From Bdellovibrionota bacterium (GTDB taxonomy: Bacteria > Bdellovibrionota > UBA1018 > CAUJDS01), in contig CAUJDS010000060.1 of assembly GCA_963169695.1 (NCBI GenBank), positions 128,780 to 192,779 of the forward strand: a DNA stretch of 64,000 nt. The letters are read 5' to 3'. Below, piece by piece: positions 21,551 to 34,400 of this stretch. The position numbers were made by a program, and so were the translations under genes. The notes beneath the pieces are model-generated. The model saw only the letters and a list, made by a program, of their open reading frames with translations, did not search any database and had not been told where the DNA came from. Position 1 is the first letter of the stretch, and every line of letters starts with the position of its first letter.

Positions 21551-21656
21551 ATGGCTCGAAAGTATAGGAGGTTGTCCGTGTTTGTCATGCGATTTTACTG
21601 AAAGAAACGCGCCGCGTAGCATTGACCTTCGGCGTTAGTAGGCAGAAAGCAATTTT

Positions 21657-21834
21657 AGGTCCCCGCAATTCTCGTTGAAGAATCAAACCCGCCTTGCTGG
21701 GGTTGCACTAGTCCTATTCGAGGCGTTGATGTTCGGTAGCTTAGAGGAAGACGGCTATGCGTAGCAAGTTGGGTAGGCATTTGGGAAATGGACGCAACGA
21801 GTTTGAGGAAATTCAACGATAACTACGGAGCCCC
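21657..21834. mobile_element. Short non-autonomous element (MITE-like) related to the HNH unit at 29838
   Basis: Inverted ends CCCCGCAATTCTCGTTGAA (21661-21679) and TTCAACGATAACTACGGAG (21812-21830, plus CCCC) match the ends of the 1.55-kb HNH element. Just inside, TCAAACCCGCCTTGCTGGGG (21682-21701) matches the subterminal repeat of that element, and GCAACGAGTTTGAGGAAATT near the right end also resembles its right side. CAATTTTAG before and CAATTCTAA after may be a decayed target duplication. It holds no frame and abuts the gshA stop codon. Confidence 0.6.
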
Positions 21835-21840
21835 ACAATT

Positions 21841-23130
21841 CTAAAGACCGCTTTCCGCAATCTCCATTCCTGCCGCCAATGCGGAAAGCCGGGCAATAGA
21901 TCCGTAGACCAATTCAAAAAGGTGTTTGCGGTACGGCGTCTCGCTGCTACTGGGAGCATCGGCCAACATCAGCTGCTGCAAATCGGAAGTGCATAGTCGC
22001 TTGAGCAACATGCCTTTTGAGTTGAGGTTGTCGAGCTTGCCGCGATCCTCGTGGGTCCGAAGGAATCCCCCCAGAAGTTCACATCCGACCAAATAAATAA
22101 CGGGTTCGGCTACTTTGCCTTCGCTCGTGAGTGAAGTGGGAATTCCTTCCTGAACGATGACGCTGTCGATCGACGACTTGTTTTTTCCTACGCTCATTTT
22201 GTTTTTTTCGCGACGATTGAGTTGCAGTAGTTCTTCTCCGCTAGTGGCTTGCATGATTCCCATGCCATAGGTGCCTTGATTGCTTTTGATAAAAAGGGTC
22301 GGAGTCTCTTCAACCTGTCGCTGAGTGTATTGCTCACGGAGTTTGGCAATCATTTGGTCGACCCGAGAAGCAACGAGGTCCATTCCTTGATCTTCATTGA
22401 AGTTGACTGGAGAAACTGCCTCAGAGTCAACCGTCAGCATCCAAGGATCGACGGATATGATCTGAGCAAATGCTTTGGCGAGTCGATTGTAGTGGTCAAA
22501 ATGGGTACTTTTCTTTCGTGTATGCCAACCTAACTTCTTGCTAGGCAGGATAGGTTGGGTAACTTCGTCCAAAAATGTAGGATATCCGCTAGAAAAATCA
22601 TTATTCAAAAGGATGAAATCCGGCACAAAATTGCCAATGCTCAATTTGCCGTTTTTATTTTCTAAGGGATGGGCATGGAATTTCACCCCAGAAATCGATT
22701 CTAACTCAGCGCCTTCGCTTTCTTCTGGCCACCCTATTTGGGTGTCAATTTTGGATTCGAGAAGCAGCCTTTGGAGGGTGAGCAGGTTTTCGTTGTAGAA
22801 TAGATTGCGCGTATTTTTTTCTGGTATGAGGATGCATTTTCCAAAGGAAGGTAGTCCTTGGCGATCCGCAAAGCGGTTGACCCAATTTCGAATGATCGTA
22901 GGCGCAACGGCCATGTCCTTTGCGCAAATATTGTTAAATCCAGCCGGATAAAGGTTGCAATCGACCGGTGCGATCTTAAAGCCCGCGTCCCTGATATCAA
23001 TGGAACAATAAAATGGAGATGGACTCGCTTTGGATTTTGAAGCGAACCAATCTTGTAGTTCAGTTCTTTTTTCAAAAATTCGTTCGCCAAGTTCGAGTCG
23101 AGCATGGATGGGGGTTGGGACGGGTTTCAT
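21841..23130 (-). CDS. gshA: Glutamate-cysteine ligase, GshA of the Acidithiobacillus type
   Basis: 429 residues matching the unusual glutamate-cysteine ligase family first defined from Acidithiobacillus ferrooxidans (TIGR02049), not the E. coli or plant types. Features: CSIDIRDAGFKIAPVDCNLY, PAGFNNIC, ESKIDTQIGWPEE and an ATP-grasp-like FIKSNQGTYGMGI. It makes gamma-glutamylcysteine, the first step of glutathione synthesis; no gshB lies in the window. The start ATG is one base after the TPR gene stop, so it is the last gene of the ArsA operon. Confidence 0.85.
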   Translation of the reverse strand: MKPVPTPIHARLELGERIFEKRTELQDWFASKSKASPSPFYCSIDIRDAGFKIAPVDCNLYPAGFNNICAKDMAVAPTIIRNWVNRFADRQGLPSFGKCILIPEKNTRNLFYNENLLTLQRLLLESKIDTQIGWPEESEGAELESISGVKFHAHPLENKNGKLSIGNFVPDFILLNNDFSSGYPTFLDEVTQPILPSKKLGWHTRKKSTHFDHYNRLAKAFAQIISVDPWMLTVDSEAVSPVNFNEDQGMDLVASRVDQMIAKLREQYTQRQVEETPTLFIKSNQGTYGMGIMQATSGEELLQLNRREKNKMSVGKNKSSIDSVIVQEGIPTSLTSEGKVAEPVIYLVGCELLGGFLRTHEDRGKLDNLNSKGMLLKRLCTSDLQQLMLADAPSSSETPYRKHLFELVYGSIARLSALAAGMEIAESGL

Positions 23131-29826: not shown

Positions 29827-29837
29827 GGATTGTCCGG
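29827..29837 (+). repeat. Flanking direct repeat, left copy
   Basis: GGATTGTCCGG here and GGATTGCCCGG at 31389-31399 differ at one of 11 positions and bound the inverted-repeat element exactly. A target-site duplication is the simplest reading. Confidence 0.55.
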
Positions 29838-29915
29838 TCTCCGCAATGAACGTTGAAAATAATGCGGTATGAGGAAAGCCCTTGAAGTTGGCGGAAGGTG
29901 TCATCTAAGAGATCT

Positions 29916-29993
29916 CAGCCCCAGCAAGGCGGGTTTGAAGCTAGGAAGTCCTTATGGGATGGCAGGAAGAAGACTCAGCGAGGGGGGAGGGCG
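29916..29993 (+). repeat. Subterminal inverted repeat, left arm
   Basis: 78 bases pair with 31212-31289 on the other strand with about nine mismatches. Shared blocks include CAGCCCCAG, AAGGCGGGTTTGAAGCTAGG and TCAGCGAGGGGGGAGGG. Transcripts crossing the element could form a very long stem. Confidence 0.85.
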
Positions 29994-30182
29994 ATAAGGC
30001 AAGGAGGTCTTCAGTCAGGGCGTGTGAATACTTGTTAGACCGAGTCCCTTTCTGCGCGCGAAATGGAAAGTAATTTTTCATCATCTTATCTGTAATTCAG
30101 AATTCTTTCTCAAATCTTCGGTCGGTTTTGCTTGACCGAGTTTTTCTACAAAAGTGTATTTTTCATTGAGCAAGTCCAAACA

Positions 30183-31093
30183 ATGCGTAACATCCCATTA
30201 CACGCGCAATACGCCTCTCAAGCGTCAAGGAATAAAAATATTAGCACCGAACAATCGCCTTCTAGCCTCAAAGGATTGTCGGATTCTCAGTTGCAGCTTC
30301 GAATCCGAGAGCTTGCCAAAGCTGAGCAGCGATTGACTTTACAAGTGCTGCTTCACCTCAAAGAAATCTCCGATCGCAAGCTCCACGCAAAGCTTGGATA
30401 CGCTTCCTTGTGGGAATACACTGTGAAAGAACTAGGCTATTGCGAAGCTTCTGCTTCCTCTCGTATTGCGGCCATGCGATTGATGGTGAGTGTCCCAGAA
30501 GCTAGGACTCAGATAGAAAACGGGAAGCTCACGCTCTCTCAGGCGGCAAGGATTCAGCAGTTTATTCGCAAGGAGAATCTATCTCCTTCAAAGCCGATGA
30601 AGAAACTCTGCAAATGCTAGAAAGGCTCCGGGAGCTACGTGGCAACTTAGGAGCCTTGGAGTTATTTAAGCTAAGCCTCAGAACCACTTTGGATAAACTC
30701 GATCCACTCCGAAAGAAGCAGAAGGTAAAAAGTAGCAAACCAGATCTGTCCCTTTTTGCGCAGAAACTCAAGGATGATTGCCTCGTTTCTGATAGGAATT
30801 TATATCCAACTTCTCCGAAGCCTTCACGCTTTATCCCGCAATGGATCCAGATCGAAGTAGCCAAGCGTAGCAAAGGCCAGTGCGAGTACCATAGTCCTTT
30901 AAACGGCAAACGATGCGAGAGTCGCTACCGAGTTCAATACGACCACATTGTGCCGATTGCTCGTGGAGGAGTAGGGACTTTAGAAAACATTCAACACCTA
31001 TGCGGACTTCACAATCGTACTAAGGGAGTGCAGATGGAGGCCGCATACTTCGGGGCAGGGCTTGCCGTTGTGCAACAAGAAAGAAGAAGCTAA
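30183..31093 (+). pseudogene. HNH endonuclease of the Bdellovibrio type, frameshifted
   Basis: The first frame (ATG 30183 to stop near 30620) carries the N-terminal helical region: LSDSQLQLRIRELAKAEQRL, KLGYASLWEYTVKELGY, IAAMRLMVSVPEA, ENGKLTLSQAARIQQFIRKE. The second frame continues as ESISFKADEETLQMLERL and contains the HNH core CEYHSPLNGKRCES, then YDHIVPIARGGVGTLENIQH and LCGLHNRTKG. The shift is one base near 30575; either a base was lost or a -1 slip is needed. This architecture matches the HNH proteins I know to be numerous in Bdellovibrio. The C-terminus after HNRTKG is shortened and lacks the usual final helix. It is the only gene inside the inverted-repeat element. Confidence 0.8.
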
Positions 31094-31211
31094 TTTAAGT
31101 ACTTAGAATGAGTTCGCGCACGAAGAAGGGAAATGTTTTGATTGGCTAACAGGCAACTGTAAAATGCATAAATGTTTTGTAATAAATCTGTAATAAGGCA
31201 CTTACTTTCTG

Positions 31212-31289
31212 CACCCTCCCCCCTCGCTGATTCTTCTTCCTGTCATCCCGCATAGGCCTCCTAGCTTCAAACCCGCCTTACTGGGGCTG
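31212..31289 (-). repeat. Subterminal inverted repeat, right arm
   Basis: Reverse complement partner of 29916-29993, same length. The sequence CAAACCCGCCTTACTGGGG in this arm recurs in nearly the same form in the short element next to gshA. Confidence 0.85.
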
Positions 31290-31388
31290 GGTGGCACTCC
31301 GGGCTTCTTTCCGTTTTGCCAAAATTAGCCCTTTTTTACTAAATAGTGCGACGAGCTAGAAGCCCTTCAACGATTACTACGGGGTCCC

Positions 31389-31399
31389 GGATTGCCCGG
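31389..31399 (+). repeat. Flanking direct repeat, right copy
   Basis: GGATTGCCCGG, partner of 29827-29837. It lies only nine bases before the stop codon of the giant exported protein gene, so the element sits between that gene and trmB without breaking either. Confidence 0.55.
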
Positions 31400-31407
31400 A
31401 TTCTCTG

Positions 31408-34400
31408 CTAGTCCTCTCCATCCTTCAAACTCTCCAACAAAGCTCCCTTACAGGGATTGGAGCCCTTTGCCTTCTTTGCGGAAAGGACATTGTAGGGAAT
31501 AATTCTATCAATTCTCTGCTTGTCCTTTCCGTCGGCGAACAACGCTCCATCGTCAACATAAAGACCAGGCGAATTTCCGCGCTCGTTCTTTAAGAGCGTA
31601 TATAAGTGATAGATGTCATCCTGAATCACAAGACGGGGTAAGGGTCCCGTTTCAACCGGGGAGTGGGCGGAGATCCATGCCAGGATTTTTAGGTCGGATT
31701 CGGTGACGACGATAGGTGTCTTCTGAGCGTGCAAGTAAACGCTCGGATTAGCTGCATTCGCCCAGCCTTGAATGAGTTTTCCGAGCGGGCGGTTTTGGAG
31801 AAAGTAGGTGCGCTCCTTGGGTGATAGTACTTTGTGGCGGATTGCAAGGCGTTCAATTTCTCGAAGGACATCGGGCCGCATCTTAGTCGCATCGACGTGG
31901 CGTAGGCCCCAATTGAGGAGAAAATGCAGGTAGGCGTCGCGACCCAAGATTGACGGATGGCGGCTGGCAAGAGCGAGCCACTCTTGATGAGTCCACGGAT
32001 GATCGTAGGCAAGAGAGAGGATCTCTCTCCAGATTCCCAACTCGTTTGAAAAGGAGTAGTCAGTGAATTGAGGGCCACGAAGGGATTTTAAGAACTTCTC
32101 CAAGTCGGGGCGTTCCCAATTCTTGCGGGGTTCTTGAAACAAGGCGACGATGCGATCATCGAGCGCGCTCTTGCCTTTTGTAAACCTAACGCCATCAACC
32201 TCGACGGATCTGGCGTCAAAATGCAGTTCTAAGGTTCTCTTCTTTTCTCCGCCCGCTTCGATTACAAGATTCACGATTCCCGACTTTCCGGGGATTCGAG
32301 AAGAGACGTCCGTCGTTTGAAGACTTCTTAAGGCTTTCTGGGCAACGACATAGTTCTCCTTGGCTGCGGTAGGAATGCGTCGAAGCAACTCTTGTCCTTC
32401 TTCGAGCGGCAAATGACCTTGAACGGTTTCGGCGGTGACGCGTCCAATCCATGTTCGTTGCATTTCGGGGTTGAAGACCGGACTATCGAAGACGGCTTCT
32501 AAAAACCCTCGGTCCACCGGCTCAAGGCGGAGAAGGGTGTGGATTTCCGCCGCCGGCACGACTCCTGACCGTATAAAGGGTTGAAGTTCGGGGAGGGTGC
32601 CAGCTATCTTTCGATAGCTCTTAGCGATCTCGGCTGCCATTTCAGAACTAGCAGCATGGGCTAGGATCTGCCTATTGAGGGCAGGATCTTCGATGGTCAT
32701 TGCCAAATGAAGCAATTGCCGTTTGGTACCGCGGTGAAGGATTTCTGTCATCAGCTTCTGATCGAGTTCGCTGTCGAGGGCCTCAATCGTACCGTAGGTA
32801 GGGATAAGTTCGTCGGATGGGATTTCGTGCGCATGAGCTTGAAGGTAATCCATCCACGATTGCGGAAGGACCGTGGATTTGTACTCAGATTGTAGAAGAT
32901 CGGGATAGAGCTCGGTTACCTCGAAGCCAAGAATATGATTGGCCAAATCGTTTGGTAGGCCCGATCCATTTCGCCCTTGTCCACTTTTCTTTCCGCGTTT
33001 CTTTCCGCGAACGCGAAGGGTTTCCTGAAGGTACCTGATGTAATTCGCGTCTTCATGTCGAAGAAAATCAAGAGCGGGTGCTCGATCTTGAGAGTAAGGA
33101 AGTTCAATCGTTCTTCGAGCGGCTTGCACCAGTTCTTCTTTTAATTCAGGTTGTTGTTTTAGAATCTCGTTAAACTGCCTTTCGCTGAGCGAAGATTCAT
33201 CCGGAATGGTGCTTAAGAGCTCTCGATAGTACGAGCTCCTTTCCTGAAAACCGGGAGCGGCCTCTTTAGGCTCCGGAACAAACCATCGCCGCAACTTGGC
33301 CACGATCGCGGAGAAGACCAATCGTGGGTAAGAGGTCTGCAGAACGTATTCGCCAAAGGTTCGTTGTTGAAACTTCTGCATGGCCTTTAAGGAGGTCGGC
33401 GAAAGATCCGTGCTGTGAATAATCTGTTGAGCCGCTAAAAGCGACTTCTTGGCAAATCGGACGGAGGGTTTGAATTCCACTTTCTTACCTGAGATTTCCT
33501 GAAGAGCGACTCGCCATTCATCCAAGAATTCGGGTGCGTTGGTGGCTCGTCGACCTTTGAACGCTTTTTGAAGGGCCGGTAAGACGGATTTGGTTAAGGC
33601 TTCCTGGGAATGTCCTTCGTTAGAAGTACGCACAAGGCCGAGGAAGGCTTTGGCCATATCGCCATCCTCAATGCGGGGGATGCCCACCAATCCTGGATCC
33701 ATGCGGCGAGTGATCCCAGCGAAAACACCACGGAGATCATCGAGTTCTTTGGGGTCAAGCCGGACAGGCTGCGCGAGGTCAATCCGATGGACGAGGAGAA
33801 TCTTCGGATTGAAGCGGTCGCGAGTGATGAGCCAGTTGCCCTTGTGGCCGTCGGCGTCCGCCAGGCCTTTCTCAAAGAGCGCTCGAATCTCTGCGCGATA
33901 CATGGCTTGGTATGCGCGTACGAGTTCTTTTTGCGTAGGGCGCGGCGATTGATTGCGAATATCTCGAGCTATGGGAGTCAGAAGAATGCGGATGGGATTG
34001 GCTCCGCCCTCGGAGTAGTTTAGAACCTTCGCTTCCCGGACCGCCATCGATCGGACCTTCAAATCCCTTTCAAATCCGTCGTAGACCGCGCGCGAGGTTT
34101 CACTCTCTGCACCTAACGTTCGAAGCACTTCGCGATCGTGTTGAAGATTGGCTTCGGCTTGCATGGAGTCCGCCAGGAGTTCCGTGGCTTCTTCAATGCC
34201 ATCGGCCATGCGATTCACAGATACGGGGTCGACGGCGTATTCGTGCTTGGCTAGGCTCTGGCGGATTTCATGAACGGTGGCCTTTAGGTCGCCGCGTTCA
34301 AACTGGGCTTCGAGATCGGGATCATCGCGCACCATTCGCGCGGCGTAAGACTGACCGTTTCTCAGTTTCACTTCGAGAGTGACATTCATCGATCCAGAGC

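Follow-up and report, generated by a model that had tools for sequence, protein, structure and literature searches.

The unit in the window

The window, the whole 64,000-nt stretch of Bdellovibrionota DNA that was analysed, holds a mobile unit of 1553 bp at 29836–31388, whose termini are fixed by terminal inverted repeats (TIRs) and a 9-bp direct repeat. The TIRs are about 22 bp long. The left one, GGTCTCCGCAATGAACGTTGAA, starts at 29836 (29836–29857, forward strand) and is common to loci L031, L032, L044 and L047; the right one, GGGACCCCGTAGTAATCGTTGAA, is read inwards from 31388 (31366–31388, reverse strand) and recurs at other copies. Directly outside them lie the two copies of the target-site duplication, GGATTGTCC (29827–29835) and GGATTGCCC (31389–31397), for which the best reading is a 9-bp repeat matching at 8/9 positions (P=2.5e-4 on its own). 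Inwards, each TIR is followed by an outer segment and a subterminal arm. The left outer segment (the ‘a’ end, 29858–29915, forward strand) spans from TIR to arm and also adjoins arms at C63, C11, C8 and C75, and at C31 with its inner 22 bp only; the right one is the ‘b’ end (31290–31365, reverse strand). The arms themselves occupy 29916–29991 (forward) and 31214–31289 (reverse), are 76 nt long each and 88% complementary. A chance origin is rejected, since the genome has about 40 arms whereas shuffling the window gives an expectation of 0.00 for their 20-nt core. The termini recur at other copies of the unit and elsewhere have no match at up to two mismatches.

Between the arms, on the forward strand, a non-coding 5′ leader (29992–30216) precedes an HNH gene of the type called T1 here. 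This gene is dead. Compared with the intact copies L051 and L052, 159 bp are missing after 30216, a deletion that cuts the 3′ end of the leader and removes the start codon, and a further 151 bp are missing after 30578, which causes a frameshift. What is left is a first part with the DUF222-like N-terminal region (30217–30578) and, out of frame with it, a second part (30579–31093) that keeps the HNH motif (PF01844, E=8.4e-5); as open reading frames the remnant appears as two overlapping ORFs, 30132–30620 and 30614–31093. The original prediction had described inverted ends, arms 88% alike, a direct repeat at the boundary and HNH as the only gene of the unit. All of this stands, but the sizes of the repeats are replaced by those given above, and the deleted start codon and the frameshift of the window gene had been missed. 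The possibility that the arms form structured RNA or hairpins was considered and rejected, as folding z-scores are near zero or positive and the unit has no Rfam match. Just beyond the right duplication begins a 23-nt direct repeat (31400–31422 and 31511–31533, 87%), which lies where a 2254-aa ORF ends; this ORF has a HEYGH metalloprotease-like motif.

A second unit of the window, overlooked in the original prediction, lies at 21658–21834, upstream of a cysteine-synthase-like gene. This gene-free deletion derivative of 177 bp still has both TIRs and the b end but, of the arms, only the outer portion of one. It is flanked by the direct repeat GCAATTTTA (21649–21657) and ACAATTCTA (21835–21843), matching at 7/9 positions.

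A family of units in one genome

The source assembly (2.79 Mb in 82 contigs, 95.6% complete, and fragmented, in places at the unit repeats) contains about 40 arms at some 24 loci with unrelated flanks, and many inverted arm pairs are spaced 1.5–1.6 kb apart. Sixteen full-length HNH genes are present, six of type T1 and ten of type T2, and none of the 16 is interrupted by a stop codon. Pairwise dN/dS lies between 0.08 and 0.18 at dS of 0.3–1.1 (median 0.13 for T2 and 0.11 for T1): these genes are under purifying selection. By nucleotide profile, an arm flanks 15/16 of the genes on at least one side and ten on both sides, one partially; the sole arm-less gene lies at the start of a contig. Full units without exception contain HNH and no other gene, and nearly all identifiable copies have HNH or its remains. 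An uninterrupted chassis free of HNH remains was not found in the genome, the 177-bp unit being a deletion derivative with part of one arm only.

Beyond the arms, the outer segment at which a copy ends is of one of several types, and the a and b types terminate in TIRs. A third type, in which CCTTTTTGGCCCGAAGTGCGTCACAG adjoins the arm, ends the copies at L033, L037 and L056, and thus the chassis has several end variants. Palindromes of two kinds were also noted. The leaders of T2 HNH genes contain TCGTCGTACWGTACGACGA (L034:2064–2082, L035:904–922, L037:2450–2468 and L158:1955–1973), possibly an operator or a nuclease site, and palindromes of the GGTGCCAGGCACC type adjoin two insertion sites (the left flank of L034 and the 5′ flank of L044), possibly as a REP-like target.

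Transposition and the search for a mobilising enzyme

Four copies have direct repeats exactly at their ends: the two units of the window (29836 and 21658), L034, whose left terminus is mostly deleted (CAGGCACCTT/CAGACACTTT, 8/10), and L047 (CAGTTTTAGA/TAGTTTTAAT, 7/10). The matches range from 7/10 to 8/9, with P of 2.5e-4 to 5.8e-3 each and a joint P<5e-6 over the four loci, and flanking direct repeats are present wherever both ends can be located. These repeats indicate that the units transposed with duplications of about 9–10 bp; mismatches, and lengths that vary between 9 and 10 bp, agree with insertions of some age. With its ends, duplications, dispersal and deletion derivatives, the chassis behaves like a transposon, and so the mobile nature that had been proposed for the unit is borne out by ends at about 24 loci and direct repeats at four copies. 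Members of the IS4 family typically duplicate about 10 bp (PMC2266710).

Which enzyme, then, moves these units? Transposases of the DDE, HUH, serine and tyrosine kinds were looked for inside the units and none is encoded in any copy, as the original prediction had stated for the window unit. A pattern search for the TIRs allowing up to three mismatches returned the units and one unconvincing, unrelated-looking site, and no partner insertion sequence with the same ends. The one DDE family searched for, DDE_Tnp_1, which covers the IS4 family, is absent from the 95.6%-complete source assembly. A search of viral contigs found no arms, and a search of phages and plasmids no relatives of the HNH gene.

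Two HNH lineages share one chassis

T1 and T2 proteins are only about 25% identical. The phylogeny of the HNH family was reconstructed from 116 proteins and, more carefully, from 40, and in both trees T2 sits beside HNH genes from genomes G002, G032 and G009, and T1 beside HNH genes from G008, G002 (L106) and G016. A tree constrained to unite the two types is worse by 97 log-likelihood units (AU p~1e-114), although the long branches call for some caution. Judged by these trees, a single origin of T1 and T2 is rejected; they are not one clade.

The arms do not follow this division. Their comparison gives no signal of HNH type (T1–T1 0.243, T2–T2 0.241, T1–T2 0.236), and arms within one unit are no closer than arms of different units (0.242 vs 0.241), so that co-evolution of the arms with the HNH type or within a unit is rejected. 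Since both lineages use the same arms, the ends appear to belong to a chassis that is independent of the HNH type, and the nuclease gives the impression of a selfish gene that rides on the transposon. In some T2 units a stretch known from the 3′ side of T1 genes sits inverted on the 5′ side, which suggests that cassettes and ends have been reshuffled.

The HNH family in other genomes

The gene reaches much further than the ends. In the class, the HNH family occurs in 35/58 genomes, the source genome included, with up to 49 matches per genome, and in a sample of the phylum it occurs in 144/291 genomes. The arm was found in none of the 57 other genomes of the class, so the search of related genomes that had been proposed yielded its roughly 40 arms from the source genome alone. 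A nucleotide profile of the arm matched the flanks of 0/60 HNH genes of other genomes, and a search for inverted repeats around such genes returned weak pairs and short palindromes only. What the copies have in common in the other genomes examined is the gene, a leader of 150–550 nt and a short 3′ stretch. A scan of genome contigs returned one relative only, L087, from an Oligoflexia MAG. Among 21 members of the family, HNH is matched in 21 and DUF222 weakly in two (best E=6.7e-5). In genome G009, palindromes such as ACTCGCGCCGGCGCGAGT lie where the HNH leader begins and recur inside the same gene, where its N-terminal part gives way to the HNH part (L121 and L122).

Genus g73, which we take to be Bdellovibrio, carries between 0 and 19 copies across 24 genomes. 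The family had been called abundant in Bdellovibrio, which this range of copy numbers bears out, but the genome that presumably matches B. bacteriovorus HD100 (G118) has none. One insertion in the genus can be compared with empty alleles (L178 in G099 vs G115 and G118; L201 vs L202 and L203): the HNH insertion replaced about 60 bp between two flanking genes, and neither TIRs nor a duplication were found at it against the empty alleles. This points to a way of moving of the HNH gene that is independent of TIRs, as expected of homing-type genes. At another site of the genus, L195, other insertions are present as well. Phylum-wide, patchy and under purifying selection, the HNH gene behaves as a selfish gene in its own right. 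A literature search that paired this HNH family with mobile elements or with inverted repeats in Bdellovibrio returned no paper.

How the units may move and what the HNH gene may do

The explanation that we favour, to which we would give an even chance, takes the window unit for a defunct member of a non-autonomous transposon family that resembles a mobile insertion cassette (MIC). The family would be moved in trans, and DUF222-like HNH genes would have entered it and stayed intact through a selfish or retention function. The chassis, with its 22-bp TIRs and subterminal arms of about 76 bp, would be what the transposase recognises, and joining of the ends to staggered nicks in the target would leave the duplications of about 9–10 bp. 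We infer that a separate element, missing or lost from the assembly, provides the transposase in trans; no such gene was found in the assembly. The sole cargo would be an HNH gene whose N-terminus resembles DUF222. Its family probably travels through the phylum on its own, free of these ends, and at least two separate lineages, T1 and T2, would have settled inside the chassis, the shared arms allowing cassettes and outer ends to reshuffle between copies. Why is the gene kept functional? Presumably because it helps the element to persist: the HNH protein most likely cuts element-free alleles or donor sites, and repair would then copy the element in, a homing or retention role comparable to that of TnpB in IS200/605 elements. 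Some results count against this reading. A cassette mobilised in trans might show copies free of HNH or with other cargo, yet nearly all carry HNH; the duplications are imperfect (7/10 to 8/9), and the transposase acting in trans was not found.

Could the HNH gene instead encode a homing endonuclease and live as a hyperparasite on a MITE-like repeat? It would cut HNH-free copies between the arms and be copied in by recombination, transposition of the chassis and spread of HNH being separate processes. One chassis that hosts two HNH lineages, T2 genes that carry inverted T1-flank sequence, and a related genus in which HNH moves without TIRs all speak for this. An uninterrupted HNH-free chassis was however not found in the source genome, where the 177-bp unit is a deletion derivative with part of one arm. 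We regard this alternative as possible, though doubtful.

It is unlikely, in our judgement, that mobilisation is the work of the HNH protein itself, which would bind arms or TIRs and make staggered nicks, so that the unit would be an IS-like element with an HNH enzyme. Such a role would agree with HNH being strongly conserved, the only gene in full units and intact in 16/16 full-length copies, and with the failure to find a transposase with matching ends. Against it, two non-sister lineages of about 25% identity use the same ends with no type-specific differences in the arms, relatives in the 57 other genomes of the class occur without the ends, and the HNH insertion in genus g73 leaves no duplication. 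The known HNH enzymes hydrolyse DNA; none is known to join strands. That HNH is a transposase or an essential part of one, with two divergent lineages acting on the same TIRs and arms to give 9–10-bp duplications, is improbable and less likely than mobilisation in trans; if true, this would add a previously undescribed class of transposition enzymes. The original prediction had offered two options. The HNH-only element of a new kind is disfavoured: the family is widespread without these ends, an outcome fixed beforehand as speaking against it, and two separate lineages share the ends. HNH as cargo moved by an enzyme encoded elsewhere is favoured by the finding of two lineages in one chassis, but no such enzyme came to light. 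It is very improbable that arms and TIRs are ordinary dispersed repeats promoting homologous recombination and the units old gene duplications rather than transposons: the copies are old (dS 0.3–1.1) and their outer ends vary, but the termini are sharp, inverted and recurrent, with direct repeats at the exact ends at four loci, and the flanks are unrelated at about 24 loci.

Comparison with known systems

Under the trans-mobilised reading that we favour, close parallels in organisation are the MICs, units whose inverted repeats enclose a gene other than a transposase, which encode no transposase themselves and which duplicate the target site (PMC3913671); MIC231 of Bacillus cereus is moved in trans by the transposase of IS231A (PMC3913671). 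Like MIC231 and the qnrD mic, window-type units have TIRs, no internal transposase and a target-site duplication (at four loci, imperfect). Unlike them, they have no partner insertion sequence that could be found, their cargo is a nuclease in two lineages, and they possess long subterminal arms.

The TnpB-only and IscB-only units of the IS200/605 group are alike in being non-autonomous with a nuclease as sole gene, and IscB has an HNH domain. In contrast to IscB, neither RuvC nor guide-RNA features were detected for the HNH protein of the window family: the NCBIfam IscB model scores 31.7 vs a cut-off of 175, at the HNH end only, and the window unit lacks an Rfam match. TIRs and target duplications also set the present units apart from IS200/605 elements. 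TnpB acts as a gene drive for its IS200/605 insertion sequence and favours its persistence (PMC11870625), and the HNH units are an independent parallel to TnpB- and IscB-only elements. Here a single genome has a transposase-less transposon chassis in which two separate HNH lineages have settled and been kept functional. With it, the route by which a sequence-specific nuclease ends up as the only gene of a mobile element can be tested.

Other HNH repeats and transposons share single features. In Mycobacterium tuberculosis, REP13E12 is a genomic repeat family of multi-copy DUF222-HNH genes (PMC10589994); it too is a multi-copy HNH family, and two members here match DUF222 weakly, but its sequence similarity to the window family is remote only. 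The eukaryotic KolobokP is a transposon with a His-Me finger homing endonuclease, for which two ways of spreading were proposed (PMC9587614). It resembles the present units as a transposon carrying a homing-type nuclease and differs in encoding its own DDD/E transposase and in having terminal direct repeats. The HNH family itself is among the commoner mobile genes of the phylum. It shares with free-standing HNH homing endonucleases a single mobile gene, a patchy distribution between species and, in genus g73, insertion free of duplications, whereas the window-type gene lies inside a TIR-bounded unit with 9–10-bp duplications.
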